Shown: in pieces, positions 7,098 through 25,046 of the stretch
Numbering within the stretch: position 1 is the first letter of the stretch
Layout of the letters: the number at the start of each line of letters is the position of its first letter
Source: Myxococcaceae bacterium JPH2
Lineage (GTDB): Bacteria > Myxococcota > Myxococcia > Myxococcales > Myxococcaceae
DNA length: 64,000 nucleotides
Reading direction: 5' to 3'
NCBI GenBank assembly: GCA_016458225.1
Contig: JAEMGR010000006.1
Coordinates: 1-64,000 of the forward strand
Translations under genes and position numbers: made by a program
Notes under the pieces: generated by a model
Told to the model about the DNA's origin: nothing
Seen by the model: only the letters and a program-made list of their open reading frames with translations
The model's database searches: none

Positions 7098-7367
7098 TCA
7101 GGCCGCGGGGGCCGCGCCGCCCTGTTCCTGCAGGAGCTGCTCGCAGAGCGAGGCCACGTGCTCCAGCGTGTTGAACAGGTCCACCATGGAGACCTGCACG
7201 CCCAGCTCGTCCTCGATGCGGTTGGCCAGCATGGTGGCGAGCAACGAGTTGCCGCCGATCTCCAGGAAGTGGTCCGCCGGCCGCACCACCTCCACTCCCA
7301 GCGACTCGCGCCAGTAGTCAGCCAACTTCTGTTCCATGGACGTTCGGAGGACGCTGTCGGTGCTCAC
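7098..7367 (-). CDS. Free-standing peptidyl/acyl carrier protein (PCP)
   Basis: An 89-residue discrete carrier protein. The phosphopantetheine attachment motif is GGNSLLAT around residues 38-45, preceded by DHFLEI and followed by a helix with a VDLF element. It lies between the C-A-PCP-TE gene and the multimodular NRPS on the same strand, 81 bp upstream of the latter. The upstream AMP-dependent ligase (11472-13151) is a natural candidate to load it, and the first C domain of the next NRPS is a natural acceptor. That would make this the starter-unit carrier, which is inference. It could also carry an amino acid that is modified before use. The acidic, alanine-rich C-terminal tail is usual for the family. 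Confidence 0.93.
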   Translation of the reverse strand: MSTDSVLRTSMEQKLADYWRESLGVEVVRPADHFLEIGGNSLLATMLANRIEDELGVQVSMVDLFNTLEHVASLCEQLLQEQGGAAPAA

Positions 7368-7408: not shown

Positions 7409-11425
<4,017 letters not shown>

Positions 11426-11471: not shown

Positions 11472-13151
11472 CTAACGCGCGCGCGAATTGAGCTGCTCAC
11501 GCAAGAGGTGCTTGCGCACCTTGCCGGTGGCCGTCTTGGGCATCGCGTCGACGAGTTCCAGGCGGTCTGGCCAGTACTGATTGGACATGCCCTGCTGCTT
11601 CAGGTGCTGGCGCAGCTCGTCCAGGGTGGGCGTGCCCTCGCCCTCGCGCGTCACGACGACGGCACAGACACGCTCGCCGCCAATCTTGTCATCCGAGTGC
11701 GCGACGACCGCGACTTCCTTCACCTTGGGATGGGAATACAGCGCGGATTCCACTTCCACGACGGGAATCTTATAGCCATATCGAAAGATGACGTCCTTGA
11801 GCCGGCCGACGATGCGGATGCCGCCTCGGCCGTCGTCGCGCGCCAGGTCTCCGGTGTCGAACCAGCCTTCGGCGTCCACACTGGCGGCATAGATGTCGTC
11901 ACGCTTGAAATAGCTCAGACACTGGCTGGCGCCGCGCACCAACAGGCGGCCGGTGCCGTCTGGATAGGGCGTCCCATCCTCGGCCACGGCGGGGGCAATC
12001 CTGACATCCATCCACTCCACCGCGCGGCCGTCGCTGTGGGCGGGCCAGTCTGGCGGGTCGTCCTGGCGGGTGATGGTGACGGCGCCATTCTCCGTCATCC
12101 CCCACAATGTGTGCAGTTGAATGCCGAACATTTCCCTCACGGTCGCGATGAGGTGGGGCGGAACGGGGATGGAGCCCGTGGCCAGCTTTCGCAACGAGGA
12201 GGTGTCGCGCGGGCGCTTGCGCTGCGTCGCGATGACATTCATCAGGTAGGTCGGAATGCCATAGGAGAAGGTGACGCGGTGCTCCTCGATGAGCTTGAGC
12301 GTCAGCTCGGGGTCACCCACGTCCATGTAGACGGCGGTCGCGCCGAGCTGCACGGGGAGCTGGAACAGATAGGTGAAGCCCGTGGAGGCGGTGAGCAGGG
12401 ACGGGAGGCAGAAGACGTCCTCGCCCGTCAGTGACAGGGTTTCTCCCAGCGCCCGGGTGATGCCGTAGTTGGTGTTGTGGGAGTGGATGACGCCCTTGGG
12501 CTCGCCCGTGGTGCCGGACGTGTAGAGGACGTTGCAGACCTCGTCCGCGTGGGCCTCGCGTGCGTCCAGCTCGGCGGCCGGGCGCTCCTCCTCCCAGGCG
12601 CGCGCGACGAAGGTGGCGTCGAAGTCCAGCTCGCCCGGCCCCAATGGGCCCTCGGCGCCCAGGAGCACCCGGTGCCGCAGCGAGGGCAGCACGCCCGCGA
12701 TCTCCCGCGCCATGTCGCGGTGCGTGTAGCCCGCCCAGGCCTGCGGCCCGATGTACACGGACGCCTCGGTGCGGCCGAGGATGAACTCCACCTCACGCCG
12801 TCGGTAGTCCGGAGGAATGGGCGCGATGACCGCGCCCATGCGCGCGCAGGCCAGCGCCAGCGCGGAGAACTGCCACCCATTGGGGAGCTGCACCGCGACG
12901 ATGTCCTCGCGACCCACCCCCAGCGACAGCAACGCCCCCGCGAACCGATCCATATAACGGCTCAGGTCCGCATAGGTCAGACGTGTCACATCCTTGGAAA
13001 AATACCGTGCGGCAATGATTGCTGTCTTCTCTGGATGGGATTGCACGGCGCGCCGAAGGTCATCCACAATCGTGGCGTCACGCCACCAACCCCTCTGCCG
13101 ATAGAGGGCGCCGTGCGTCTGGGCCGCAGGGTTCTGGAAGCGCTGTCCCAT
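11472..13151 (-). CDS. AMP-dependent acyl-CoA/acyl-carrier ligase
   Basis: Class I adenylate-forming enzyme of 559 residues. It should activate a carboxylic acid with ATP and pass it to CoA or to a carrier protein. Visible motifs are YTSGTTGEPKG, the aromatic-substrate region ending in WGMTENG, GWFDTGDLARDDG, GRLKDVIFRYGYKIP and PKTATGKVRKHLL with the late catalytic Lys. I chose the ATG at 13151 because GAGGAGAA lies a few bases upstream; 32 more codons are open upstream but lack a good ribosome site. The protein resembles cyclohexanecarboxylate or medium-chain acyl ligases more than NRPS A domains. As first gene of the left arm next to a free PCP, it probably supplies the starter acyl unit. 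Confidence 0.9.
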   Translation of the reverse strand: MGQRFQNPAAQTHGALYRQRGWWRDATIVDDLRRAVQSHPEKTAIIAARYFSKDVTRLTYADLSRYMDRFAGALLSLGVGREDIVAVQLPNGWQFSALALACARMGAVIAPIPPDYRRREVEFILGRTEASVYIGPQAWAGYTHRDMAREIAGVLPSLRHRVLLGAEGPLGPGELDFDATFVARAWEEERPAAELDAREAHADEVCNVLYTSGTTGEPKGVIHSHNTNYGITRALGETLSLTGEDVFCLPSLLTASTGFTYLFQLPVQLGATAVYMDVGDPELTLKLIEEHRVTFSYGIPTYLMNVIATQRKRPRDTSSLRKLATGSIPVPPHLIATVREMFGIQLHTLWGMTENGAVTITRQDDPPDWPAHSDGRAVEWMDVRIAPAVAEDGTPYPDGTGRLLVRGASQCLSYFKRDDIYAASVDAEGWFDTGDLARDDGRGGIRIVGRLKDVIFRYGYKIPVVEVESALYSHPKVKEVAVVAHSDDKIGGERVCAVVVTREGEGTPTLDELRQHLKQQGMSNQYWPDRLELVDAMPKTATGKVRKHLLREQLNSRAR

Positions 13152-13347
13152 CTGGATTCTCCTCGCAGGAATTGACGTATCGCGGCGCGGGAAGCGGCAC
13201 GGTAGTGATGGTGTTGTCACCGGTAAAGGCAGGTTTTTCTCGCACATCCGAATATTGAGAAAATCCGCGTTGACGTAACACGATGCGATTTCCTAGGGTG
13301 CCAGCTCGCGGCCGGAACCCAGGGCTGACGCCAGCGACGCAACGGGC
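13152..13347. promoter_or_regulatory. Divergent intergenic promoter region between the two arms of the cluster
   Basis: 196 bp separating the minus-strand ligase/NRPS arm from the plus-strand AmCP/encapsulin arm. It contains an AT-rich patch near 13,230-13,300, unlike the flanking DNA. The octamer TTGACGTA occurs twice, at 13172-13179 and 13270-13277. The second copy could serve as a plus-strand -35 box, with a poor -10 (TAGGGT) near 13,294. No regulator gene lies inside the cluster, so control is probably exerted from elsewhere on this region. The promoter assignment is by eye only. Confidence 0.4.
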
Positions 13348-14175
13348 ATGATTCCTCTCTCGGCGAATGCATCCCAATTGGAGCGGCGAGCCCGGCGGGT
13401 CCGGCGGCTCATCCTGAGGCTGGCGGCCACGCCGTCGGGCTGTCATCTCGGGGGCTCGTTGTCGGTGGTGGAGCTGCTGGTGGTGCTGTTGGGGGAGGTG
13501 ATGCGGGTGGATCCGCGCGCGCCCCTGTCCCCGGAGCGAGACCACCTCATCCTGTCCAAGGGCCACGCGGCCGCGGGGATGTACGCGGCGCTGGCGGAGT
13601 TCGGCTTCCTGGACGCCGAGGAGCTGGTGAGCCGCTACAACGCGGAGGGCAGCCCGTACACCGGACACGTCAACGCGGCGGTGCCCGGAGTGGAGTTCGC
13701 CACCGGGAGCCTGGGACATGGGCTGGGGTTGGGCGTGGGGCTCACGCTGGGACACAAGCTCAAGGGCGAGCCCAACCGGACCTATGTGGTGTGCGGTGAT
13801 GGAGAGATGGGCGAGGGCTCCAACTGGGAAGCGCTGCAAGTGGCCGCGCACCACCGGCTCTCCGCGCTGACGCTCGTGGTGGATCGCAACGGCGGACAGA
13901 ACGACGGGCCCACCGAGTCCATTCTCTCGCAGGCCTCGCTGGCGCGGCGGCTGGAGGCGTTTGGCTTCCACACCTCCGAGGTGGACGGGCACGACCTGAC
14001 GGCGCTGGGCGCCGCGCTGCGCGAGTCCGGGGGGGAGCGGCCTCGGGCGCTCGTGGCTCACACGCAGAAGGGCGCGGGGGTCCCCATGCTGCGCGGCAAG
14101 GGCCCGCACTACGCGGTGTTCTCACCGGAGCACCTGCGCCGGGCGCTCGCGTCCCTGGGCGAGGAGGCGTCATGA
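13348..14175 (+). CDS. Transketolase, N-terminal (TPP-binding) subunit
   Basis: A 275-residue thiamine-diphosphate subunit of a split transketolase. It shows the cofactor-binding signature GDGEMGEGSNWEA at about residues 150-162 with the downstream Asn of DRNGGQND, and the substrate histidines in CHLGGSL, SKGHAAAG and TGHVN. Split transketolases work as dimers with the C-terminal subunit, encoded next with a 4-base ATGA overlap. In AmCP-dependent routes of Streptomyces (vazabitide A, ficellomycin) a transketolase moves a two-carbon ketol unit onto the carrier-bound semialdehyde. The carrier gene three positions into this operon supports the same job here. It is the first gene of the operon, and its ribosome site is weak. 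Confidence 0.93.
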   Translation: MIPLSANASQLERRARRVRRLILRLAATPSGCHLGGSLSVVELLVVLLGEVMRVDPRAPLSPERDHLILSKGHAAAGMYAALAEFGFLDAEELVSRYNAEGSPYTGHVNAAVPGVEFATGSLGHGLGLGVGLTLGHKLKGEPNRTYVVCGDGEMGEGSNWEALQVAAHHRLSALTLVVDRNGGQNDGPTESILSQASLARRLEAFGFHTSEVDGHDLTALGAALRESGGERPRALVAHTQKGAGVPMLRGKGPHYAVFSPEHLRRALASLGEEAS

Positions 14176-15209
14176 GCATGGCGTCACGGCCCGGCGCGGA
14201 CCTGCTGGAGACGCCCGAGGTGTGGCTGCGCGAGCACCCGGAGCTGGCCTCGCGGCTCGTCTTCCGTCACGCGGCGGCGCGCTTCGCGGAGCTGGACTCG
14301 CGCATCGTCTTCCTCGAGGCGGACCTGGGCGGCGGCGCGGACCCCTTCGAGTCGCGGCACCCGGGCCGCTACTTCAACCTGGGCATCTGCGAGGCGACGC
14401 TCATCGACGTGGCGTGCGGCATGGCGCGCGTGGGCCACGTGGTGATCGCCCACTCGTTCGCGCCGTTCGGGGTGATGCGGGCCTGTGAGCAGGTGCGCCT
14501 GGGCATGGCGTACGGACGCGCGAACGTGAAGCTCGTGTGCGACTACGGCGGCGTGGCGGGCGCGTTCTTCGGGCCCACGCATCACGCGGTGGAGGACCTG
14601 GCCATCCTCCGCGCCATGCCGGGGATGACGGTGGTGTCCCCCATGGACGGGCTGGAGACGGTGCAGGCCACGCGCGCGATGCTCCAGCACGACGGCCCGG
14701 TGTACCTGCGTCTGGGGCGCAACCGCGTCACGCGGCACGACGTGCCCCGCGGTCCCTTCGAGCTGGGGCGCGCGCAGTGCCTGCGCGAGGGCGAGGACGT
14801 GGGCCTCCTGGCGCACGGCGAGGTGGGCGTGGCGGTGGCGCTGGACGCGGCGCGGCTCTTGGAAGCGCGCGGTGTGTCGTCGCGCGTGCTGAACGTGCAC
14901 ACGCTCAAGCCGCTGGACGAGGCGGCGGTGCTGGAGACGGCGGAGCGCACGCGGCTGCTGGTGACGGTGGAGGAGCACAACGTCCTGGGCGGCCTGGGCG
15001 GAGCGGTCTGCGAGACGGTGGGCGCGGTGGGCCTGGGGCGGCGCGTGGTGCGCGTGGGCCTTCAGGACCGGTACGACGCGACGGCGGGCTCGCACGAGTC
15101 ATTGCTGGCCGGACACGGTTTGGAGGGGGCGCAGGTGGCGGAGCGCGTGTTGAGCGCGCTGCCGCGTCCCCGGATGGCGGCGGTTGGACCAGTCACGAGG
15201 AGGAGTTGA
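14172..15209 (+). CDS. Transketolase, C-terminal (pyrimidine-binding) subunit
   Basis: A 345-residue partner of the preceding subunit. It carries the pyrimidine-binding transketolase fold, with NLGICEATLIDVACGMA containing the catalytic Glu, followed by HSFAPFGVMRACEQVR and the YGGVAGAFFGPTH loop, and a C-terminal transketolase domain containing EEHNVLGGLGGAV. The length fits stand-alone C subunits (about 310-340 residues). Start and stop overlap the neighbours tightly (ATGA with the previous gene; the carrier-protein ATG follows the stop directly), so the two subunits are probably made in equal amounts. The acceptor is inferred to be a carrier-bound glutamate semialdehyde. An ordinary pentose-phosphate role is unlikely in this context. 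Confidence 0.93.
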   Translation: MSMASRPGADLLETPEVWLREHPELASRLVFRHAAARFAELDSRIVFLEADLGGGADPFESRHPGRYFNLGICEATLIDVACGMARVGHVVIAHSFAPFGVMRACEQVRLGMAYGRANVKLVCDYGGVAGAFFGPTHHAVEDLAILRAMPGMTVVSPMDGLETVQATRAMLQHDGPVYLRLGRNRVTRHDVPRGPFELGRAQCLREGEDVGLLAHGEVGVAVALDAARLLEARGVSSRVLNVHTLKPLDEAAVLETAERTRLLVTVEEHNVLGGLGGAVCETVGAVGLGRRVVRVGLQDRYDATAGSHESLLAGHGLEGAQVAERVLSALPRPRMAAVGPVTRRS

Positions 15210-15404
15210 ATGCAGCCGCAAAAGCAGATGGACGCCCTGGGTGGCAGCCCATGTCCCCTGTGTGCGCTGGACGTCCCGGGGGGGAACCGGATGATGGGCG
15301 AGGTCGTCACATGCGAAGGCTGTGACGCGGAGCTGGAGGTGGTGGGGCTCAATCCACTGCGTCTGGCCGAGGCGCCCGAGGTCGAGGAAGACTGGGGCGA
15401 GTAG
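15210..15404 (+). CDS. lysW: LysW-type amino-group carrier protein (AmCP)
   Basis: A 64-residue acidic protein with two CxxC zinc ligand pairs (Cys15/Cys18 and Cys35/Cys38) and the diagnostic C-terminal motif EDWGE. In Thermus LysW and Streptomyces AmCPs, the gamma-carboxyl of the terminal Glu forms an isopeptide bond with the alpha-amino group of glutamate or aminoadipate, protecting it while the side chain is modified. The GAGGAGG-like ribosome site ends just before the TGA of the previous gene. The next gene encodes the matching LysX-type ligase. Neighbours (transketolase, sulfotransferase, NRPS) indicate a specialised-metabolism AmCP, not one serving lysine or arginine synthesis. Identity is firm; the exact cargo (Glu or aminoadipate) is inferred. 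Confidence 0.95.
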   Translation: MQPQKQMDALGGSPCPLCALDVPGGNRMMGEVVTCEGCDAELEVVGLNPLRLAEAPEVEEDWGE

Positions 15405-15411
15405 TCGGCCC

Positions 15412-16254
15412 ATGGCGACGATCGACCTCGTCTACACGCGCCTGCGCGCCGAGGAGCGGCTGATTCACGACGCCCTCCGCCGGCGAGACTGCGTCGTGCA
15501 CATGCACCAGGACGCGGACCTGGTGCTGTCGTTGGACAAGCGGCCCTGGTCGCAGAGCGACACGGTGCTCATGCGCAGCATGTCCTTCACGCGGGCGCGC
15601 TACCTGGCCACCTTCCTGGAGGTGAAGGGGGCACGCGTCCTCAACAGCGCGCGGGCCATCTCCACCTGCGGGGACAAGGCCCTGACGTCCGCGGCGCTGG
15701 CGGCGCGCGGCGTGCGGCAGCCGTGGTCGTTCGTGGCCTTCGATGAGGAGGCGTGCCTCGCGGAGATTGAGCGGCGGGGCTACCCGGTGGTGACGAAGCC
15801 GGTGCTGGGCTCGTGGGGCCGCATGGTGGCGCGCATCGACTCGCGCAGCGCCGCCGAGGGCATCCTGTCCACGCGCTTCGGGACGGGCGGCGCGCAGGAC
15901 CACGTGGCGCTCGTGCAGCAGTACATCGACAAGCCGGGCTATGACTTGCGCGTGTACGTGATGGGGCGCGCGGTGGGCGGCATGCGCCGGCGCTCCGAGC
16001 ATTGGATCACCAACACGGCGCGCGGCGCGGTGCCGGAGCGCTACGAGGTCCCCGCCGCGCACGCGAAGCTGGCGGAAGAGGCCGCGGCGGCGGTGGGTGG
16101 CGACATCGTCGCGGTGGACCTGCTGGAGACGCGCGAGGGCGAGGTCTACGTCAACGAGCTGAACCACTGCGTGGAGTTCGGGCGGAGCATCGAGCTGACG
16201 GGCATCCCGCTGCCGGACCTCATCGCCGAGCACGTGTTGGGAGTCCGGCGATGA
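15412..16254 (+). CDS. lysX: LysX-type ATP-grasp ligase loading the AmCP
   Basis: A 280-residue ATP-grasp enzyme that should join the alpha-amino group of glutamate (or aminoadipate) to the C-terminal Glu of the AmCP. The sequence closely follows Thermus LysX: CGDKALTSAAL, YPVVTKPVLGSWGRMVA, RSEHWITNTARG and the metal-binding NELNHCVEF. The ATG at 15412 lies 7 bases after the carrier-protein stop; the open frame upstream is read-through. It overlaps the next gene by ATGA. Since the AmCP plus C2-transfer route in Streptomyces starts from glutamate, glutamate is the expected substrate. The substrate-pocket residues alone do not let me exclude aminoadipate. Confidence 0.94.
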   Translation: MATIDLVYTRLRAEERLIHDALRRRDCVVHMHQDADLVLSLDKRPWSQSDTVLMRSMSFTRARYLATFLEVKGARVLNSARAISTCGDKALTSAALAARGVRQPWSFVAFDEEACLAEIERRGYPVVTKPVLGSWGRMVARIDSRSAAEGILSTRFGTGGAQDHVALVQQYIDKPGYDLRVYVMGRAVGGMRRRSEHWITNTARGAVPERYEVPAAHAKLAEEAAAAVGGDIVAVDLLETREGEVYVNELNHCVEFGRSIELTGIPLPDLIAEHVLGVRR

Positions 16255-17291
16255 CGGCGCGCGTGGCGGTGCTGGGCGCGGCCGGCTACACGGGCGGCGA
16301 GGTGCTGCGCCTCTTGTTGGCCCACCCGGCCGTGGAGGTGGTGCAGGCGACCTCGGGCCAGTTCGCGGGCAAGCGGCTGGACTTCCCGCATCCGCACCTG
16401 CGGGGCATGAGCACGCTGCGCTACTCGCCCCATGACGCGGTGGAGCCGTGCGACGTGCTGGTGAGCTGCCTGCCCTCGGGCGAGCTGCTCCAGCGCTGGG
16501 AGCGCGTGGCCCCGCTGGCCGAGCGCGTGGTGGACCTGAGCGCGGACTTCCGGCTGGACGCCGAGGGACATGCGCGCTGGTACCCGCAGAACCCGCGACC
16601 TCCAGGCCTGCCCACGTTCGTCTATGGGCTGCCGGAGTGGATGGGGGAGTCGCTCGCCGGCGCGCGCTTCGTCTGCATCCCCGGGTGCATGGCGCACGCG
16701 GGGCTCCTGGCCCTCATCCCGCTGGTGCGCGCGGGCGTGGTGAAGCCCGAGGTCGTGGTGGACGCGAAGACAGGCTCATCGGGCGGCGGCTCCTCGCCGG
16801 GCCGGTCCTCGCACCATCCGGAGCGGGCCAATGCGCTGCGCTGCTTCCGGCCCGTGGGCCACCGGCACACCGGGGAGCTGGAGGACATCGTCTCGCGCGT
16901 GACGGGCGTGCGACCCACCGTCCACTTCAGCGCCACCGCTGTGCCGTCCGTGCGCGGCATCCTGGCCACCGTGCACGCGTTCGCATCGCGGCCCGTGGAC
17001 GAGGCCGAGGTGGCGCGCGTGCTCGCCATGGCCTACCGGGACAAGCCGTTCGTGCGGCTGCTGCGTCCCAACTCCGCCGCGTCGCCGTTCCCGGAGCCGG
17101 GCCCGCTGGCGGGCACCAACCACTGCGACCTCGCCGTGTCCGTGGACGCCGAGCGCGGCCGCATCGTGGTCAACGCCGCCATCGACAACCTGGTGAAGGG
17201 CGCGTCGGGCACGGCGGTGCACGCGCTCAATCTCATGCTCGGGCGTCCGGAGACCGAGGGACTCGGCTTCCGGGGGCTGCATCCCCTCTAG
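16251..17291 (+). CDS. lysY: LysY/ArgC-type AmCP-acyl-phosphate reductase
   Basis: A 346-residue NADPH-dependent reductase of the N-acetyl-glutamyl-phosphate reductase family. It would reduce the carrier-bound acyl phosphate to the semialdehyde. Visible features are the Rossmann motif GAAGYTGGE at residues 9-17, catalytic Cys in IPGCMAHAG near residue 147, and the GHRHTGELED region near residue 205 with the conserved His. It has the usual family length. It begins inside the LysX stop (ATGA) and ends 12 bases before the shell-protein gene. The substrate should come from the LysZ-type kinase encoded at 19859-20725, and the aldehyde product is the natural acceptor for the split transketolase. 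Confidence 0.95.
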   Translation: MTARVAVLGAAGYTGGEVLRLLLAHPAVEVVQATSGQFAGKRLDFPHPHLRGMSTLRYSPHDAVEPCDVLVSCLPSGELLQRWERVAPLAERVVDLSADFRLDAEGHARWYPQNPRPPGLPTFVYGLPEWMGESLAGARFVCIPGCMAHAGLLALIPLVRAGVVKPEVVVDAKTGSSGGGSSPGRSSHHPERANALRCFRPVGHRHTGELEDIVSRVTGVRPTVHFSATAVPSVRGILATVHAFASRPVDEAEVARVLAMAYRDKPFVRLLRPNSAASPFPEPGPLAGTNHCDLAVSVDAERGRIVVNAAIDNLVKGASGTAVHALNLMLGRPETEGLGFRGLHPL

Positions 17292-17303
17292 GAAAGGAAT
17301 TCC

Positions 17304-18161
17304 ATGAGCTCGCTTGTCACGACGGCGGACGTGTCTCCCGGCAGGGCCTTCGCGGAGGCGTGCCAGCAGCAAGGAGCGCAGGCGTCCGTCTCGTTCAACA
17401 CGACCATCACCGACGCCTTCCCCGGCTTCAAACGCCGCCCGCGCATCGCCGTGCGCGGCATGTTCAAGGTGGCGCGCGCGGAGAAGGACCCCGTGCCCTA
17501 CTGGTACGAGACGCACCCGCGCACGGCGCCCACCGTGAAGGTGGAGGACGTGGAGCTGCGTCCCGAGGCGGCCTTCGAGTTCCATCAGGACCAGATGCCC
17601 CTGAAGCCCACCACCGCGTGGATTCAAGTGCCTCGGCCGCTGCTGGAGGACCGCGAGGCGCTGGCGCAGTTCATCGACTTCCGCCTGCTCGTGCGCCTCA
17701 ACACGGCGGAGAACCAGGCGCTGTGCATCGGCAAGGGCGGCGAGCGCGTGCGGGGCTTGTTGGAGACGCCGGGCATCCGCCGCCTGCCGCCGCGCAAGAC
17801 GCCGGTGGCCTCGCTCCTGTCGGCGTGCGCCGAGGTGGAGCAGATGGGCGGATCCGCGGACGGCATCATCATCAACTCGCTCGACTTCTACGCGCACCTG
17901 GTGGGCCAGAACGGGCTCCTGGGGGACCTGGCCAGCATGGGCGTTCGCATCTGCCGCACGCGCATGGTGAACCCGGGCACGGTCATCGTGGGGGACTTCA
18001 CCGCCGCGGCCACGCTGTTCGACAGCGGTCGCTCCGTCATCCGCTTCGCGCAGCCTCCGCCCGGCATCTTCCCGCGCGAGGGACTGGCCGCGTATGGCGA
18101 GGTCTACACGGCGCTCACGGTGCACCTGCCCACCCACTTCTTCGTCACCTCGTTGGTGTGA
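17304..18161 (+). CDS. HK97-fold encapsulin shell protein (family 3-like)
   Basis: A 285-residue protein with the sequence pattern of HK97-type major capsid proteins: a P-domain-like stretch PRPLLEDREALAQFIDFR near residues 107-124, IGKGGERVRGLLETPGI near 137-153 (the conserved GxG...GIL loop), GIIINSLDFYAHL near 190, VIVGDFTAAATLFD near 228, and a closing beta segment GEVYTALTVHLPTHFF. No phage genes (terminase, portal, protease) are nearby. It has its own ribosome site (AGGAAAGG) 12 bases after lysY and is followed by the sulfotransferase ATG within 3 bases. Family 3 encapsulins have been proposed from genome mining in peptide gene clusters of actinobacteria and myxobacteria. It probably self-assembles around one or more pathway enzymes. 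Fold call is strong; the family 3 label rests on context. Confidence 0.85.
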   Translation: MSSLVTTADVSPGRAFAEACQQQGAQASVSFNTTITDAFPGFKRRPRIAVRGMFKVARAEKDPVPYWYETHPRTAPTVKVEDVELRPEAAFEFHQDQMPLKPTTAWIQVPRPLLEDREALAQFIDFRLLVRLNTAENQALCIGKGGERVRGLLETPGIRRLPPRKTPVASLLSACAEVEQMGGSADGIIINSLDFYAHLVGQNGLLGDLASMGVRICRTRMVNPGTVIVGDFTAAATLFDSGRSVIRFAQPPPGIFPREGLAAYGEVYTALTVHLPTHFFVTSLV

Positions 18162-18163
18162 CG

Positions 18164-19111
18164 ATGGCGGACGCGCCCGTGCTCACGGTCCTCTACATCA
18201 CCGGGTGGTGCCGCAGCGGCAGCACCATCCTCGGCAACGTGCTCAACGAGCTGCCGGGCGCCTTCCACGTGGGCGAGCTGAGCTTCCTCTGGAAGAACGC
18301 CTACGGCCACGGCTCCAACACGTTGTGCGGCTGCGGCACGCAGCTGGTGGACTGCGCCATCTGGAAGGCCGTCCTCGAGGGGCCTGAGCGCGCGGCGGAA
18401 GTGGTGAAGCGGCAGCAGGCCGCGGTGCGCACCCGGCACACGTGGCGCGTGTTGGACGAGGCGGGCGAGTCCACCCCGCTGCGCGAGCACGCGGCCTTCC
18501 TCGCGCGCACCTACCGCGCCATCGCGGACGTGACGGGCAGCACGGTGCTGGTGGACAGCGGCAAGTTCCCCTCCGAGGCGGCGCTGCTGCCGCACGTGGA
18601 GGGCATCCGGCCCTTGTACCTGCATCTGGTGCGGGACCCGCGCGCGGTGACGCACTCGTGGACGAAGACGAAGCAGTACGTCGTCCCCATGTCCGCGGCC
18701 CGCAGCACCGCGTACTGGGTGGGCTTCAACCTCGCCTCCGAGGAAGTGACGCGCCGCCATCCGAGCGCGTCCGTCTTCCTGCGCTACGAGGACTTCATCG
18801 CCGCGCCGAGCGCCACGGTGGACACGCTGCTCGACCTGATGGGCGTGGACCGCGCGCGCAACCCGGTGGATGGGCGCACGGTGGTGCTGGGAACGAATCA
18901 CACCGTCACGGGCAACCCGGACCGCTTCCGCAGCGGGCCCACGTTGCTGCGCGGCGAGGACGACGCATGGCGAGGCGAGCTGTCCGCCTCGGCTCGCGCC
19001 ACCACCCTGGCCATGGCCTGGCCACTGATGGCGCGCTACGGCTACTTCTCCGGCACCGCCCCGGTCGCCGACTCCAGGAGGGACGTGCTTGGAACTGGGA
19101 CTCGCCAATAA
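18164..19111 (+). CDS. PAPS-dependent sulfotransferase
   Basis: A 315-residue sulfotransferase that should move sulfate from PAPS to a hydroxyl group. It shows the 5'-phosphosulfate loop WCRSGSTILGN at residues 13-23 and the 3'-phosphate motif LVRDPRAVTHS at about 154-164. In the vazabitide A pathway, a sulfate ester on the C7 dihydroxy-diamino acid is the leaving group for aziridine closure, so a comparable role is plausible. The ATG at 18164 lies 2 bases after the encapsulin stop. The 3' end overlaps the SDR gene by 23 bases and contains that gene's ribosome site. About 20 polar residues after the last predicted helix form a tail that could be a shell-targeting signal; that is speculation. 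Confidence 0.9.
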   Translation: MADAPVLTVLYITGWCRSGSTILGNVLNELPGAFHVGELSFLWKNAYGHGSNTLCGCGTQLVDCAIWKAVLEGPERAAEVVKRQQAAVRTRHTWRVLDEAGESTPLREHAAFLARTYRAIADVTGSTVLVDSGKFPSEAALLPHVEGIRPLYLHLVRDPRAVTHSWTKTKQYVVPMSAARSTAYWVGFNLASEEVTRRHPSASVFLRYEDFIAAPSATVDTLLDLMGVDRARNPVDGRTVVLGTNHTVTGNPDRFRSGPTLLRGEDDAWRGELSASARATTLAMAWPLMARYGYFSGTAPVADSRRDVLGTGTRQ

Positions 19112-19862
19112 GGTCGCGCTCGTCGCCGGAGGCTCCAGCGGTCTGGGGCTCGCGGTGGCCGAGGAGCTGGTGAAGGAAGGCGCGCACGTGGCCATCGCGG
19201 CGCGTGACCCCGAGCGCCTCGCGCGCGCCGAGCGCATGCTCAACGCGGTGGGCCGCGGTCGCGTGCTCGCCTCTCCCGTGGATGTCCGGGACGCGGCGGC
19301 CATGCGCCGCTGGGTGGAGCAGGTGTCCGCCAAGCTGGGCGGTCCGCACATCGTGGTGACGAACAGCGGAGGACCTCCGCCGGGGCCCGCCACGGGCTTC
19401 GACGTGGACGACTACCGCGACGCCACGAACGCGGTGCTCTTGCCGCCCATCGGGCTGGCGCTCGCGGCGCTGCCGTACATGAAGCGGGCCGGATGGGGGC
19501 GCCTGCTCTTCATCACCTCCGAGACGGTGGTGCGTCCGGTGGCCCGCTTCGCGCTGTCGGGCTTCGCGCGCTCGGGCATCGTCGCGTTCGCCCAGGCGCT
19601 GGTGCAGGAGCTGGGCGACTCGGGCATCACCGTCAACGTGCTGGCCCCCGGCTACACGCGCACGCCGCCGGTGGAGCGCACCGCGGGGGCCTCGGGGGAC
19701 GTGGACGCGGGGCTGCGCGCCATGGCCGCGCACATCCCCATGAAGCGGGTGGGGCGCGCGGACGAGTTCGCCGCCGCGGCCGTGTTCCTCGCCAGCGAGC
19801 GCGCGTCCTTCATCACGGGCACGGTGCAGCTCGTGGATGGCGGCGCGAGCGTGGTGGGATGA
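19089..19862 (+). CDS. Atypical short-chain dehydrogenase/reductase
   Basis: A 257-residue SDR with Rossmann motif GGSSGLGLA at residues 13-21, TNSGG in place of NNAG, and the ITVNVLAPGYTRT strand. The catalytic YxxxK is absent: Ser and Arg occupy those places (SGFAR), while the preceding catalytic Ser (ITSE) is kept. The same SxxxR pattern occurs in a subgroup of SDRs, so activity is possible but may differ from normal carbonyl reduction. Start is TTG at 19089, inside the sulfotransferase gene, chosen because AGGAGG at 19076-19081 sits 7 bases upstream. The stop overlaps the kinase ATG. SDRs and sulfotransferases have been suggested as family 3 encapsulin cargo, as I recall. The substrate is unknown. 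Confidence 0.9.
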   Translation: MELGLANKVALVAGGSSGLGLAVAEELVKEGAHVAIAARDPERLARAERMLNAVGRGRVLASPVDVRDAAAMRRWVEQVSAKLGGPHIVVTNSGGPPPGPATGFDVDDYRDATNAVLLPPIGLALAALPYMKRAGWGRLLFITSETVVRPVARFALSGFARSGIVAFAQALVQELGDSGITVNVLAPGYTRTPPVERTAGASGDVDAGLRAMAAHIPMKRVGRADEFAAAAVFLASERASFITGTVQLVDGGASVVG

Positions 19863-20725
19863 GCACCGCGTCCGTCGGTCTCGCGGGTCCTCCCGTGGTG
19901 GTGAAGATTGGCGGGGCCGCGGGCGTGGACCTGGACGGCGCCTGCGAGGACATCGCCGAGCTGACGCGGCAGGGCGTGCGCGTGGTCGTCGTCAACGGTG
20001 GCTCGGACGCGGGCGAGCGGCTCTTGTCGTCGCTGGGGCTCGCGCGCCGCGAGGCGACCACGGTGAGCGGCAACGTCGTGCGCCTCACCGACGCGCCCAC
20101 CCTGCGCGCGCTCACCATGGCGTGGGTGGGCGAGGTGAACAAAGCCGTCGTCCTCGCGCTGCTCGCCCGAGGCGTGTCCGCCGTGGGGCTGTGCGGCGCG
20201 GATGGCCGCGTGCTGACCGCGAAGCGACGCGCGCCGCTGAAGCTCCAGGAGGGCGGGCGCGTGCGCATCGACCGGGAGCATCTGGCCGGAGAGGTGACGG
20301 CCATCAACGTCGCGCTGCTCGACGCGTTGTTCTCGGTGGGGCAGGTGCCTGTCATCTGCCCGCCCGCCGTCACGGCGGACCAGGTGCTGGTGAACGTGGA
20401 CGCGGATCAGGTGGCCGCCGCGCTCGCGGTGGGGCTGGGGGCGCGGGCATTGGTGATGTTGTCCAACGTGCCGGGGCTCCTGGCGGACCCCGCGGATCCC
20501 TCGACGCTGGTTCGCGAGAGTGACGATGCGCGCGCCAGCATGCGGCTGGCCCGTGGGCGCATGCGGTACAAGTTGGAGGCGGCGGCGCGCGCGCTGGAGG
20601 GGGGAGTGCCCTCGGTGCATGTCAGCGCCTCGTGCGCGGAGCGGCCCGTGTTCTCCGCGCTGGAGGGACTTCGGGGCACGCGCTTCACCCAGCCAGGAAA
20701 GGCGGCGGCGGATGCAGGCGCGTGA
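19859..20725 (+). CDS. lysZ: LysZ-type AmCP-glutamate/aminoadipate kinase
   Basis: A 288-residue amino-acid kinase of the N-acetylglutamate kinase family. It should phosphorylate the free side-chain carboxyl of the AmCP-bound amino acid. Motifs are VVKIGGAAG at the N terminus, VVNGGSDAGERL, GLCGADGRVL, NVDADQVAAALA and LSNVPGLLA, all placed as in Thermus LysZ. The start overlaps the SDR stop (ATGA), and the end overlaps the hydrolase by 14 bases. In NAGK the second Gly-rich loop is usually HGGG; LysZ enzymes carry HGGS and here it is NGGS, which fits a carrier-bound substrate. Together with lysW, lysX, lysY and lysK it makes a nearly full AmCP set. Confidence 0.94.
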   Translation: MSTASVGLAGPPVVVKIGGAAGVDLDGACEDIAELTRQGVRVVVVNGGSDAGERLLSSLGLARREATTVSGNVVRLTDAPTLRALTMAWVGEVNKAVVLALLARGVSAVGLCGADGRVLTAKRRAPLKLQEGGRVRIDREHLAGEVTAINVALLDALFSVGQVPVICPPAVTADQVLVNVDADQVAAALAVGLGARALVMLSNVPGLLADPADPSTLVRESDDARASMRLARGRMRYKLEAAARALEGGVPSVHVSASCAERPVFSALEGLRGTRFTQPGKAAADAGA

Positions 20726-21782
20726 GCCGGACATCGCGTTGTTGCGGTGGATGGTCGAGCAGTACAGCCCCAGTCACCACGAGCAGGCCTTCTCGCGCGC
20801 CTTGGTGGAACGGCTGGGGCGACAGGGCTGGCGCGCGCACACCGACGAGGTGGGCAACGCCATCGCGAGCCACGGCGACGGCGACACCGTCATCGCGCTC
20901 CTCGGACACATCGACACCGTGCCCGGAGAGGTGCCCGTCCGCATGGAGGGCGACACGCTCTATGGCCGGGGCGCGGTGGACGCGAAGGGCGCCATCGCCG
21001 CGTTCGTCGAGGCGGTGGAGGCGCTGACGCCCGCCGCGCGCGAGGGGAAGAAGTTCCTGCTCCTGGGCTGCGTGGAGGAGGAGGTGGCCATCACCCGAGG
21101 CGCCTTCCACGTGAAGGAGCGCTACGCACCGGACTACGTCATCAACGGCGAGCCGAGCGGCGCGCACGCGGTGACCATTGGCTACAAGGGCCTGTTGCGC
21201 CTGGACCTGGAGCACCGCGCGGCGCGGAGGCACACGGCCAGCCGCGACTACCGCGCGTCCGCCGAGCACGTGGTGGACGCCTGGAACCTGCTCAAGCGCG
21301 CGTGCGACACCTGGAACCGCGAGCGCACGTCGCTGTTCGAGCAGCACCTGCCCTCGCTGAACGCCTTCCACACCGGGGCCACCGACGAGGAGGAGTGGGC
21401 CACCGCCGCGGTCAGCATCCGCACCGGGCCGTCCACCGACGTGGAGCAGCTCCTGGCCCTGTTGGGGGAGGTGCCCTCGGTCACCGTGCGGACGGTGTCG
21501 CGCAAGGCCGCGGTCTCCACGGCGGGCCAGGATGCGCTGTTGCGCGCCTTCAAGCAGGCCATTCGCGAGCGCAACGCCCGGCCCACGCTGCGACTGAAGA
21601 CGGGCACTTCGGATTGGAACACCGTGGCGTCCGCGTGGAACGTCCCCATCGTGGCGTACGGCCCCGGTGACTCCTCGCTGGACCACACGCCCCACGAGCA
21701 CATCACCGTGCCCGAGTACGAGGAGGGCGTGGCGGTGCTGACCCGCGTGCTGGCCCTGCTGCCCACGAAGGGAGCGCCGTAG
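20712..21782 (+). CDS. lysK: LysK-type M20 hydrolase releasing product from the AmCP
   Basis: A 356-residue zinc carboxypeptidase of the M20 family, expected to cut the isopeptide bond and free the finished amino acid from the carrier. Metal and catalytic motifs are GHIDTVPG (His and Asp), GRGAVDAKG (bridging Asp), GCVEEEVAITRG (Glu pair), INGEPSG and the late LDHTPHEHI. The ATG at 20712 overlaps the kinase gene; a longer reading frame upstream has no supporting ribosome site. It is the last gene of the plus-strand operon, ending 11 bases before the convergent MFS gene. The region that in LysK reads YKG is conserved (GYKGLLRL), supporting a carrier-protein substrate over a simple acyl-amino acid. 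Confidence 0.94.
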   Translation: MQAREPDIALLRWMVEQYSPSHHEQAFSRALVERLGRQGWRAHTDEVGNAIASHGDGDTVIALLGHIDTVPGEVPVRMEGDTLYGRGAVDAKGAIAAFVEAVEALTPAAREGKKFLLLGCVEEEVAITRGAFHVKERYAPDYVINGEPSGAHAVTIGYKGLLRLDLEHRAARRHTASRDYRASAEHVVDAWNLLKRACDTWNRERTSLFEQHLPSLNAFHTGATDEEEWATAAVSIRTGPSTDVEQLLALLGEVPSVTVRTVSRKAAVSTAGQDALLRAFKQAIRERNARPTLRLKTGTSDWNTVASAWNVPIVAYGPGDSSLDHTPHEHITVPEYEEGVAVLTRVLALLPTKGAP

Positions 21783-21793
21783 GCCGCGGAAGC

Positions 21794-23029
21794 TCAGGTG
21801 CCCAGGGCCGCAAGGCCCCGCGGGCGCAGGGCGCGCGTGGTCAGCACCAGGACGAAGAACGCGAGCGCCGCGGTGGCGGTGACGATGCGCACGCCCAGCC
21901 GGTCCGACAGCTCCGCCTGCCCGGCGACGCCCACCGTGTAGCCCAGGTTGATGAACACGGTGAACAGGCTGCTGATGCGCGCCTGGAGCGCGAGGGGCGC
22001 GCGCGCCTGGCACACCGTCTTCAATCCGCTGAACGTCAGCAAGTACACCGCGCCCAGGACGAACAGGGCCGCCGTCGCCACGGGCAGGGTGGGGGACAGC
22101 CAGTAGAGCGCGGTCGCCGGCCCCAGCACCACGAGCGCTCCCTCCAGGAGTCGTCGCTGCCCGAAGCGCCGCGCCGCCGCGCTCGCGAGGAAGGCCGCGA
22201 TGACCGCGCCCGTGCCCTGCGCCGTCACGAGCAACGCGGTGGCCGAGTGACCCAGGTTCAGCACGCGCAGCGCGAAGACGGGCACCAGCCCGATGAACGG
22301 GGTGATGAGCAGGCCCACGCCCAGCACCGCGAGCAGCGCGAGGAAGATGCCGGGGTCCTCCCAGGCCAGTCGCGCGCCGTCCGCCATCCCTCGCCACAAG
22401 GGCTCGCGCCGCGTCGTCGGGGGGAGCGCGCCGCCGCGCACGCGCGTCATGGCCAGCAGCACCGCGCCGAAGGACACCGCGTTGATGAGCAGCGCCCAGG
22501 TGATGCCGCCCATGGACAGCACCAGCGCCGCCAGCGCGGGCCCCACGATGCGGCCCAGGTTGAACTGCGCCGAGTCCAGGCTCAGCGCGCTGTGCAGGTC
22601 CTCGGCGGGGACGACGGCGGCGATGAGGCCCGTGGCCGCGGGGATGACGACGCTGTTGAGGCTGCCGTTGAGCAGCGAGATGAGCGCGATGGCCGGCACG
22701 GTGAGGTGGTCCGTGTAGGCCAGCGCCGCGAGCAGTCCGGCCAGCAGCGCCTGGGCGCCCACGCACACCGCGAGGAACGCGCGTCGATCGAACCGGTCCG
22801 CCAGCACGCCGCCCAGCGGGGACAACACGAGGGAGGGCAGGTACGTCAGCGACGCGACCGCGCCTGTCCAGGCCGCCTCGCCCGTCACCTGCGTGACGTG
22901 GACGCCCAGCGCGATGGACTCCATCCACGTGCCGATGTTGGACACCAGGGTGCCCGTCCAGATGGCCGCGTAGTCGCGGTGCGAGAAGGCCCGGAACGAG
23001 GCGAAGCGCGGCGATGAGGGAGCGGACAC
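21794..23029 (-). CDS. MFS exporter (EntS-like, DHA3 type)
   Basis: A membrane transporter of about 411 residues with roughly 12 hydrophobic segments. The first segment, FRAFSHRDYAAIWTG followed by NIGTWMESIA, is typical of the EntS-like MFS group, and the loop GGVLADRFDRR is the MFS signature between helices 2 and 3. I chose the GTG at 23029 because the homologous start falls a few residues before FRAF; the open frame continues upstream without a clear start. The gene converges on the AmCP operon with an 11-base gap. Self-resistance by export of the cluster product is the likely role. Substrate is not determinable from sequence. Confidence 0.85.
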   Translation of the reverse strand: MSAPSSPRFASFRAFSHRDYAAIWTGTLVSNIGTWMESIALGVHVTQVTGEAAWTGAVASLTYLPSLVLSPLGGVLADRFDRRAFLAVCVGAQALLAGLLAALAYTDHLTVPAIALISLLNGSLNSVVIPAATGLIAAVVPAEDLHSALSLDSAQFNLGRIVGPALAALVLSMGGITWALLINAVSFGAVLLAMTRVRGGALPPTTRREPLWRGMADGARLAWEDPGIFLALLAVLGVGLLITPFIGLVPVFALRVLNLGHSATALLVTAQGTGAVIAAFLASAAARRFGQRRLLEGALVVLGPATALYWLSPTLPVATAALFVLGAVYLLTFSGLKTVCQARAPLALQARISSLFTVFINLGYTVGVAGQAELSDRLGVRIVTATAALAFFVLVLTTRALRPRGLAALGT

Positions 23030-23078
23030 GGGGCTTCGTTCTAACGCAGCTCCCGCGTGCCCGCTCGTGACAGAAGCG

Positions 23079-25046
23079 TCAGGGATGCGGCGCGGTGGCC
23101 AGCGCCCCCAGGAATCCGAGCGCGGACTGGCGGATGTTGGGGTTGGAGTCGTGCTGGCTCGTCCACGTGAGCAAGGGGAGCCCCTGCGGCAGCGCGCCCA
23201 GGTTGGCGCCCAGGAGGCCGACGACCTCGGCGCGCACCGCGTCCGCGCTGTCTCGCTGGAGCACCGTCCCCAGCGTGGGCAGCAAGGGGGGCAGGGCGCG
23301 GAAGCTCGCGGCGAACACGGCGCTCTTGCGCACATCGGGCGAGGGGTCCTCCAGCATCCGTGAGGCGAGCAGCCGGTCGGCTTCCGCCTCGGGGACCAGC
23401 CGCAGCGCCTCCACGGCCGCCTGCCGCACCGGGACGGAGGGCGAGGCCAGCGCCTCGCGAATCGTGGTCAGCGCGCCCGGGTCGCGCGTGTTGCCCAGCG
23501 CGCGCAGGAGGAGCGCCTGGTCCTCGGGCGTCTTCGCCGCGTGGAAGCGCGTGCCCAGCTCGCGTGAGAGGGCCTCCGCGCCGTGCGCGTCCTCGTCCCG
23601 GAGCTGGTAGGCGGAGTTGCCCAGCGCCAGCGCCGCCGTGTCGCGCAGCTCCGGGTGCGTGTCGTTGCCCAGGTCCCTCAGCGCCTGGATGCCCTCGGTG
23701 GAGGGCGTCTCCGCCATGCCGAGCGCGGCCACCGCGTCCGTGCGCACCGGCACGCCCACGGCGGCGTCATCCACCACCTTGGACAGCGCGCTCAGCGCCT
23801 CGGGGGTGCTCGCCGCGGAGAGCGCGCCCAGCATCGGGCTGGCCGCCAGGGGATCCATCCCCTCGTGCAGGAGGCCGGGCACCTTGCCTGCCTCCTGGGG
23901 CTCCAGGAGGAACAGGGCGCGCAGCTGCTCCAGCGCGTGCGTGCGCGCGTCGTCGCGCTCCTTCTCGTCCTTGGGCAGCGAGCGCAGGTCCTTCACCAGG
24001 TCGTCGAAGCGCTTGCCCGCGAGCAGCCGGCGGTACTGCTCCTTGGGGTCCTGCGGCGCGGCCTGGAAGCTGGCGAGCGGCATCGCGGTCAGTCGCGAGC
24101 GCTCCCGGTCCAGCAGGCCCACCAGCGTCGAGTCCCGCCCGCGCTCCAGCAGCTTCAGGCTCACGTGCAGCGAGTGGCTCACCTTGGGCATGCCGTCGCC
24201 CGCGTCCACGCCGAGCTGCTCGTCACCCTCCAGCAGCTCGGGCCACACGTCCTCGCCCACGTCGATGACGGCGCGGGTGCGCGCGTCCAGGCGCAGCTTG
24301 CTCGCGTCCACTTCTTGGAGTCCCTGCGACGTGGCCACGTGCGTATAGCCCCGCTTCGTCTTCTCATAGCGCTTCGCCTCGAGCCGGCGGTACGCGGCGC
24401 GGTAGAGCCCCGTCGCGTCCTGCTCGTCACTCTCCCAGGCGTCGCGCGGAGCGCCGGCCACCACGAACTGCGTGGAGGCCACCACCGAGCGCAGGATGCC
24501 CTGCGCGAGCACGTCCAGCCCCGGCTCCACGTGGACGGTCCGCACGGCGCCCGTGCGCTCCATCGTCAGGAAGATGGGCAGCGTGAGGCTCGCCGTCAGC
24601 GCGGCGCGCATCTGCGGCTCCAGCGCGTCCCGCCCCTCCACCGTCACCGACAGGTCCGTGAGCAGCAGCGCGGCCCGCGCCTCGACCTCCGTGTCGCGCG
24701 CGCCGGTGATGCCCACGCGCCACTCGCCCTGCACGTGGAAGCGCATCCCCGGCGGCACCTGCGCGCCTGGCTGCGAGGCCACGAACGTCACCTGCTGCGT
24801 GGTGTCCACCGCGTAGCGGAACTGCTGGCCTGGCACCCACGCACGCGTGCCGTCGGGCGTCCGCGTGGGCTCGGGCTCATCCAGCGAGGCCGCGGGCCGC
24901 GGCGGCCGAGCGGTGGGCCGGGTCTCCGCCACGGGCGAGGGTCCGGACTCATCGCCCGCGCGGCTCGCTCCCCACCAGCCCACGATTCCCAGCACCACGG
25001 CGAGCAACAGCAGGAGGCTGTGATGACGCTTCCAGGGCATGCGCAT
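23079..25046 (-). CDS. Membrane-anchored HEAT-repeat protein with beta-rich N-terminal domain
   Basis: About 655 residues. After a positively charged start, one hydrophobic segment (LLLLLAVVLGIVGWW) anchors it, and a Pro/Arg/Glu linker follows. Residues of about 70-330 look beta-rich, beginning with WVPGQQFRYAVDTT. From about residue 350 the protein is helical, with recurring HEAT-like units such as VRTDAVAALG, LRDTAALALG, VRQAAVEALR and VRKSAVFAAS. The order of a beta domain followed by a helical repeat array resembles the large lipid-transfer (vitellogenin N) layout, but that is only a resemblance. Two ATGs (25046, 25040) are possible, and a longer frame reaches 25103. It is separated from the MFS start by about 50 bases and may share no function with the cluster. 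Confidence 0.75.
   Translation of the reverse strand: MRMPWKRHHSLLLLLAVVLGIVGWWGASRAGDESGPSPVAETRPTARPPRPAASLDEPEPTRTPDGTRAWVPGQQFRYAVDTTQQVTFVASQPGAQVPPGMRFHVQGEWRVGITGARDTEVEARAALLLTDLSVTVEGRDALEPQMRAALTASLTLPIFLTMERTGAVRTVHVEPGLDVLAQGILRSVVASTQFVVAGAPRDAWESDEQDATGLYRAAYRRLEAKRYEKTKRGYTHVATSQGLQEVDASKLRLDARTRAVIDVGEDVWPELLEGDEQLGVDAGDGMPKVSHSLHVSLKLLERGRDSTLVGLLDRERSRLTAMPLASFQAAPQDPKEQYRRLLAGKRFDDLVKDLRSLPKDEKERDDARTHALEQLRALFLLEPQEAGKVPGLLHEGMDPLAASPMLGALSAASTPEALSALSKVVDDAAVGVPVRTDAVAALGMAETPSTEGIQALRDLGNDTHPELRDTAALALGNSAYQLRDEDAHGAEALSRELGTRFHAAKTPEDQALLLRALGNTRDPGALTTIREALASPSVPVRQAAVEALRLVPEAEADRLLASRMLEDPSPDVRKSAVFAASFRALPPLLPTLGTVLQRDSADAVRAEVVGLLGANLGALPQGLPLLTWTSQHDSNPNIRQSALGFLGALATAPHP

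Follow-up and report, generated by a model that had tools for sequence, protein, structure and literature searches.

An encapsulin-bearing amino-group carrier operon in Myxococcaceae: a candidate module for a pipecolate-type C7 building block

What would a soil-dwelling myxobacterium make with an operon that joins LysW-type carrier enzymes to a split transketolase, a sulfotransferase and an encapsulin, and what would the shell protein contribute? This question is raised by the first 64,000 nucleotides of contig JAEMGR010000006.1 of Myxococcaceae bacterium JPH2 (assembly GCA_016458225.1), the whole stretch analysed here and referred to as the window. A sequence-only reading had described ten genes at 13348-21782 (+), which were confirmed at these coordinates and on this strand and were assigned to families by hidden Markov model (HMM) searches (Pfam, and NCBIfam/TIGR models with curated cut-offs; Table 1). 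They encode the two transketolase halves (tkN and tkC), the amino-group carrier protein (AmCP) LysW, LysX, LysY, the encapsulin (enc), the sulfotransferase (ST), a short-chain dehydrogenase/reductase (SDR), LysZ and LysK. Neighbouring genes overlap by 4-23 bp or are spaced by 0-12 bp, and a single transcript is therefore likely.

LysW, the only one in the genome, contains two CxxC pairs (the zinc-ribbon cysteines), ends in EEDWGE and extends at its N-terminus about 10 aa beyond the TIGR01206 model; with this EDWGE-type end and with LysX, LysY, LysZ and LysK alongside, the AmCP gene set is complete. The encapsulin is likewise present in one copy. Its sequence matches only phage capsids in the PDB, and the gene is surrounded by ST, SDR, AmCP and nonribosomal peptide synthetase (NRPS) genes, with no phage genes around it. 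Judged from this content, the locus belongs to the natural-product (family 3) encapsulin clusters with an AmCP, a known kind described in 2021 (Andreas and Giessen, PMC8346489). Its filing as a new member of the vazabitide-type family, as had been proposed, is not supported.

The operon would serve as the building-block module of this cluster and would make a pipecolate-type C7 residue, a reading that we hold with evenly balanced confidence. LysX would join the α-amine of glutamate to the C-terminal Glu of LysW. LysZ would then phosphorylate and LysY reduce the Glu side chain to the semialdehyde, to which the split transketolase would add a C2 ketol unit, giving carrier-bound 5,7-dihydroxy-6-oxo-heptanoate. 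After release from LysW by LysK, the freed α-amine would close on C6, because a linked aminotransferase that could supply another nitrogen is lacking. Imine formation and a subsequent reduction, for which the SDR is the candidate, would yield 5-hydroxy-6-hydroxymethyl-pipecolate (5-hydroxy-6-hydroxymethyl-piperidine-2-carboxylate). The ST would sulfate a hydroxyl, creating a leaving group that could be displaced by the ring nitrogen, through a transient aziridine or aziridinium, or by chloride. A divergent AMP-forming ligase and a free-standing peptidyl carrier protein (PCP) would pass the acid to the NRPSs. The encapsulin would have a function linked to LysW; in the simplest case it would enclose the carrier, its loaded forms or an enzyme that acts on them. 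The predicted product is 5-hydroxy-6-hydroxymethyl-pipecolate sulfate, which would be built into a peptide natural product.

The two-carbon extension is reflected in the residues of tkC, which are numbered here by what we take to be the yeast transketolase positions. In the yeast enzyme, S386 and H469 contact the phosphate and D477 contacts the C2-hydroxyl of the acceptor. The tkC equivalents are Gly, Tyr and Phe in 24/24 myxobacterial orthologues, which retain both phosphate arginines and the catalytic Glu; the D477 equivalent is also lost in actinobacterial AmCP transketolases. These replacements fit a non-phosphorylated, non-α-hydroxylated acceptor, such as a carrier-bound semialdehyde. The earlier proposal of Glu on the carrier, then the semialdehyde, then a C2 addition is thus well supported by the gene set and by the tkC residues; the C7 product itself would be the expected outcome. 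The myxobacterial tkC also bears a conserved N-terminal extension, (G)ADL...P..WL....P.L (14172-14246 in the window), which is missing from the aligned Carboxydothermus subunit and from most actinobacterial subunits and might serve in docking to LysW, to the partner subunit or to the shell.

The same core had led the sequence-only reading to the vazabitide, ficellomycin and azinomycin branch. On that route the pathway would lead to 2,6-diamino-5,7-dihydroxyheptanoate and then, by sulfate elimination, to an aziridine. The shared AmCP, LysX/Y/Z/K, split transketolase and sulfotransferase favour this route, as does the azinomycin precedent (PMC9570651), and a split transketolase beside AmCP genes is itself an azabicycle-pathway trait. 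However, neither the aminotransferase nor AziU3/U2 occurs in the operon or in any of the orthologous loci compared. No pyridoxal phosphate enzyme is found in the window operon or its annotated neighbours, and an AziU3-family query, identified through the solved protein 7wuw (1.5e-70), has no match in 96 Myxococcaceae genomes. The window ST also falls in a different Pfam family from the sulfotransferase of an AziU3-bearing cluster. The azabicycle route is accordingly improbable, and membership of this branch was rejected on the missing aminotransferase and AziU3/U2. A cyclised pipecolate-type C7 compound would fit better than a diamino C7 acid or an aziridine.

A comparison with 394 genomes from the class of Actinobacteria around Allonocardiopsis opalescens (G097) separates the two kinds of cluster. 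Around each LysW, 20 kb was read, and the absences given here hold within that range. LysW occurs in 15 of these genomes, accompanied by a split transketolase in 15/15 and by LysX/Y/Z/K in 14/15. Three of the 15 clusters (G340, G374 and G416) carry a family-3 encapsulin, and all three also share the ST (45-47% identity), the SDR (51-54%) and the AMP ligase (46-52%), so that these four genes travel as a set (4/4 genes in 3/3 clusters). By contrast, the encapsulin-free clusters contain no ST relative (12/12), and their SDR and ligase matches are generic (at most 30%). DegT/DnrJ aminotransferases are present in 10 and AziU3/U2 homologues in four of these 12; both are absent from the three encapsulin-bearing actinobacterial clusters and from 23 myxobacterial operon loci. 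Conversely, the sampled relatives that carry AziU3 show no encapsulin within the 20 kb inspected. Encapsulin-type AmCP clusters thus appear distinct from aminotransferase/AziU3-type AmCP clusters. A PAPS-type sulfotransferase, whose cofactor motifs are kept across orthologues, is fixed in the cassette. Class III aminotransferases (PF00202) were tried as a discriminator and proved mostly genomic background; DegT is the relevant family. The encapsulin-bearing actinobacterial clusters nest among the encapsulin-free ones in the core tree (root unplaced), and the core and the encapsulin set may therefore have been combined more than once.

Six more actinobacterial genomes encode a family-3 encapsulin without LysW at the same locus. 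Related LysW-free loci (L040-L048, from actinobacteria and betaproteobacteria) have a sulfotransferase and an aldo/keto reductase as constant neighbours, usually with an A-PCP-reductase protein; their typical content is A-PCP-reductase, aldo/keto reductase, Sulfotransfer_5, encapsulin and a major facilitator superfamily (MFS) protein, often with a DAO oxidase. Such a set would convert an amino acid into an amino alcohol and then into a sulfate ester. Allonocardiopsis opalescens holds an encapsulin-free LysW-transketolase-DegT cluster (L124, G097:C7) and, at a second site (G097:C1:1336481-1337266), a family-3 encapsulin cluster that lacks LysW and is of the A-PCP-reductase type. Genes assigned by sequence to sulfate activation (CysD/CysN or the APS kinase CysC) lie beside several encapsulin-sulfotransferase clusters in three phyla (L104-L105 in G070, L127 in G374, L129 in G416, and L045-L047).

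How the ring would close depends on the SDR, in which SxxxR replaces the YxxxK active-site motif in 29/29 sequences compared. The nucleotide-binding glycines and the upstream Ser are kept, and SxxxR also occurs in the solved relatives 2z1n and 5va8 and in actinobacterial relatives, suggesting that the SDR is not an ordinary carbonyl reductase. The same carbon skeleton could be closed differently if the SDR reduced the C6 ketone on the carrier, the ST sulfated the C6 hydroxyl and the released α-amine displaced the sulfate to give the piperidine. PMC8346489 proposes for family-3 clusters that an SDR and then a sulfotransferase act in succession, and the two genes overlap here by 23 bp. However, the direct imine takes fewer steps, and an SDR without Tyr and Lys speaks against ordinary carbonyl reduction, which leaves this variant rather unlikely. 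The best NCBIfam model of the AMP ligase, cyclohexanecarboxylate-CoA ligase in both the myxobacterial and the actinobacterial proteins, suits a six-membered-ring acid as its substrate, although this is weak evidence.

The distribution of the operon bears on its role. In the 96 Myxococcaceae genomes sampled, LysX is found in 32 and LysW, in single copy, in the identical 32. An encapsulin is found in 31 (in one of them as two fragments), and all three proteins occur together in 31. In the remaining genome (G080), LysX and LysW are encoded on a contig of 5.7 kb that is cut off within lysY. Most loci, referred to as class A, share the window arrangement: a divergent AMP ligase, then tkN-tkC-lysW-lysX-lysY-enc-ST-SDR-lysZ-lysK. 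This ten-gene order recurs in Citreicoccus, Corallococcus, Myxococcus/Pyxidicoccus and one further genus in the family, with protein identities of 62-99%, and the arrangement is therefore not due to chance. A duplicated primary-metabolism operon for lysine, ornithine or arginine would account for the LysW/X/Y/Z/K homologues. The operon nevertheless lacks a LysJ-type aminotransferase, is patchily spread (32/96) and is fixed together with transketolase, sulfotransferase, encapsulin and NRPS genes; we rejected this explanation on gene content and distribution and regard it as highly implausible.

Eight Myxococcus-group genomes (class B: G055, G057, G058, G060, G061, G064, G069 and G071) depart from this arrangement. 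Their operon reads tkN-tkC-lysX-lysY-ST-SDR-lysZ-lysK, the class A order minus lysW and enc alone, and the sole lysW and the sole encapsulin of each genome lie close together at another, unlinked locus. In the six genomes whose lysW-enc neighbourhoods were read, the two genes are separated by 14 bp and follow an NRPS, which in G060 is trimodular with a thioesterase (TE) domain. An ornithine-cyclodeaminase/mu-crystallin-type gene lies upstream in several, and an S-adenosylmethionine (SAM) methyltransferase lies on the other side. In three single-contig chromosomes, lysW and lysX are at least 4.7 Mb apart. Since the distant LysW is the only one in the genome, the predicted ligase LysX of the operon can only charge this distant carrier.

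Trees that included six of the eight class B genomes place the two loci differently. The operon tree groups class B with the class A operons of G063, G067, G068 and G053 (Pyxidicoccus-like), and grouping by the encapsulin pattern was rejected (approximately unbiased, AU, test, p 6e-92). In the encapsulin tree, class B groups with G003, G006, G070 and G056 (support 92/92), and the operon-type grouping was rejected (AU p 0.0017). Most simply, the NRPS locus would have brought in a lysW-enc unit, and the original lysW and enc would both have disappeared. Because the class B encapsulin phylogeny differs from that of the operon and lysW and enc sit unlinked from it, carrier and shell seem to behave as one unit that serves the operon in trans, and the carrier protein appears to be inherited together with its shell. 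This joint replacement, with the other operon genes untouched, is the strongest hint, albeit indirect, of a functional link between carrier and shell. The eight genomes are interrelated, and the swap may be a single event. The two-locus genomes provide a natural genetic separation, in which shell and carrier stay together and the other enzymes lie elsewhere, and LysW is therefore a concrete candidate for a cargo or client.

The literature consulted yielded no function or cargo for a family-3 encapsulin, and no open paper on such clusters from 2022 on. The shell could also hold another enzyme, such as the ST or the SDR, with no direct link to LysW, encapsulin and LysW travelling together only through shared pickup with an NRPS that uses the product. 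This alternative is compatible with the other readings and falls somewhat short of an even balance. It is favoured by a sulfotransferase as the constant partner in the LysW-free actinobacterial and betaproteobacterial family-3 clusters, and by the position of ST and SDR directly 3´ of the encapsulin in class A; yet the eight class B genomes lost lysW and enc from the operon and kept ST and SDR.

A possible product of the pathway is suggested by chloromyxamide, which contains 6-chloromethyl-5-methoxypipecolic acid and comes from Myxococcus sp. MCy10608 (Gorges 2018, as reported in citing papers). According to PMC8346489, the cluster of the chloromyxamide producer is among the family-3 clusters and was the only one studied experimentally by 2021; the pathway and the shell role were both called unknown there. 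The predicted product of the operon would share the carbon and heteroatom pattern of this residue. The window encapsulin and that of Citreicoccus inhibens M34 share 98% identity, so that the window comes very probably from this genus; the operon orthologue of M34 lies on contig NODE_18. The only antiSMASH cluster listed on scaffold 18 of M34 scored 13% similarity to chloromyxamide (PMC8538283), and the M34 copy has thus already been listed as an NRPS region. Because at least ten shared genes would have raised this similarity far higher, we infer that the deposited chloromyxamide cluster lacks the operon. It would match the class B NRPS-lysW-enc locus, with its methyltransferase and ornithine cyclodeaminase, and the genes for the residue would lie elsewhere in the genome. 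No FAD halogenase was listed near either locus in six genomes checked (Fe(II) halogenases were not searched for), and the FAD halogenase matches of the two-locus genome G057 are weak only. The lack of a linked FAD halogenase suits chloride displacing the sulfate, but it is no proof.

We therefore offer a broader proposal, tentatively and with doubts that outweigh our confidence: the encapsulin would be a compartment whose native cargo is LysW with the reactive intermediates tethered to it, or else an enzyme that works on these; carrier and shell would together be a mobile pair of genes, exchangeable between genomes and serving the operon in trans; and the operon would be the unlinked, unrecognised source of the 6-chloromethyl-5-methoxypipecolate of chloromyxamide, with chlorine introduced by sulfate displacement and without a halogenase. 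If true, a carrier-protein pathway would be housed in a virus-derived shell. The two-locus pattern also names candidate genes behind the unusual chlorinated residue.

Several points weigh against the pipecolate reading and this extension of it. The chloromyxamide link is indirect. A SAM methyltransferase lies next to lysW-enc in Myxococcus-group genomes, but none was seen in or beside the window operon, and the product may differ from the chloromyxamide residue. A reductase role is uncertain for an SDR without the canonical Tyr and Lys. In similarity score, LysX is closer to the aminoadipate-type LysX of Thermus than to 3vpb, and its choice of Glu over aminoadipate is not readable from its sequence. 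At least nine PF00202 proteins are encoded in the genome, so that a trans-acting aminotransferase is possible. The LysW N-terminal extension was considered as a general cargo tag, an idea weakened by the encapsulin-cluster LysW proteins of actinobacteria, which have no such extension.

The AMP ligase is kept beside the operon in orthologous loci, and the MFS exporter is kept at its 3´ end in most; the true exporter start is probably internal, near 23029. The window starts at base 1 of the contig, inside the second NRPS. In a sister genome (G014, contig C33), similarity to this NRPS runs on to a terminal TE module, and the cluster therefore probably has two TE-ending NRPSs. Farther downstream lie two paralogous small exported-looking proteins (YRCTFDQLNSDQAYGRQRWAKRW / YRCTFDQLTSDQAKGRQQWAKKW), neither of which matches any Pfam family, with an S8 protease and an SBBP-repeat protein between them.

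Table 1. Features of the operon and its surroundings in the window, with the evidence for each assignment (ThDP, thiamine diphosphate; PAPS, 3´-phosphoadenosine-5´-phosphosulfate; C, condensation; A, adenylation).
Feature	Position	Strand	Evidence or remark
Transketolase N-terminal (ThDP-binding) subunit (tkN)	13348..14175	+	Pfam Transketolase_N 1.7e-29; GDG...DRN motif kept in all orthologues
Transketolase C-terminal subunit (tkC)	14172..15209	+	Transket_pyr 1.9e-30, Transketolase_C 2.1e-24
LysW-type AmCP	15210..15404	+	TIGR01206 60.5 bits, cut-off 53.2
LysX-type ATP-grasp ligase (predicted to load amino acid onto LysW)	15412..16254	+	TIGR02144 240 bits, 2.5e-71, below cut-off 275.6; rimK_fam 215.7, above own cut-off; nearest solved protein 3vpd, 1.1e-57
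LysY/ArgC-type semialdehyde dehydrogenase	16251..17291	+	TIGR01850 316 bits, cut-off 233.6
Family-3 (natural product) encapsulin shell protein (enc)	17304..18161	+	NF041188 359 bits, cut-off 180
Sulfotransferase (ST)	18164..19111	+	Sulfotransfer_3 1.8e-10; PAPS-type motifs GWCRSGSTIL, LVRDPRAV
SDR	19089..19862	+	HMM; SxxxR in place of YxxxK
LysZ-type [LysW]-aminoacyl kinase	19859..20725	+	[LysW]-aminoadipate kinase NF010659 237.8 bits, cut-off 223
LysK-type M20 hydrolase (predicted to release product from LysW)	20712..21782	+	NF003367 ([LysW]-lysine hydrolase) 355.7 bits, just below cut-off 363; TIGR01902 285.8 bits, above cut-off 163.1
NRPS, (C-A-PCP)x2-C..., cut by contig end	3..7016	-	Domain search
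Free-standing PCP	7098..7367	-	PP-binding 1.5e-14
NRPS, C-A-PCP-TE	7409..11425	-	Domain search
AMP-forming ligase	11472..13247	-	Divergent from operon; best NCBIfam model cyclohexanecarboxylate-CoA ligase, below cut-off
MFS exporter	21794..23335	-	MFS_3 9e-42
Small exported-looking protein, first paralogue	27768..28715	-	
SBBP-repeat protein	28751..30094		
S8 protease	31035..32627		
Small exported-looking protein, second paralogue	33600..34475	-	

Compared with known systems, the operon shares individual features with each of several. Its tkC is closest, among solved proteins, to the split transketolase of Carboxydothermus hydrogenoformans (6yaj, 1.5e-57), with the same two subunits and catalytic residues; in contrast to that enzyme, the window tkC has the three yeast-equivalent acceptor positions replaced. 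The vazabitide, azinomycin and ficellomycin pathways have in common with the proposed route an AmCP route from Glu, a semialdehyde, a transketolase extension and a sulfate leaving group, but they add an amine at C6 and use AziU3/U2 for the aziridine. The family-3 clusters of PMC8346489 resemble the window locus in having sulfotransferase, SDR, AmCP and NRPS as common components and in occurring in both myxobacteria and actinobacteria; the available main text on these clusters does not mention a transketolase, and the two-locus arrangement, with lysW and encapsulin apart from the operon, was not found in the available part of that paper. Three points are new relative to the available literature: the division of AmCP clusters into an encapsulin type and an aminotransferase/AziU3 type, the split over two loci, and carrier and shell being inherited together. 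The chloromyxamide cluster, as far as the sources at hand describe it, also has a family-3 encapsulin, and its residue has the same C7 skeleton as the product predicted for the operon.

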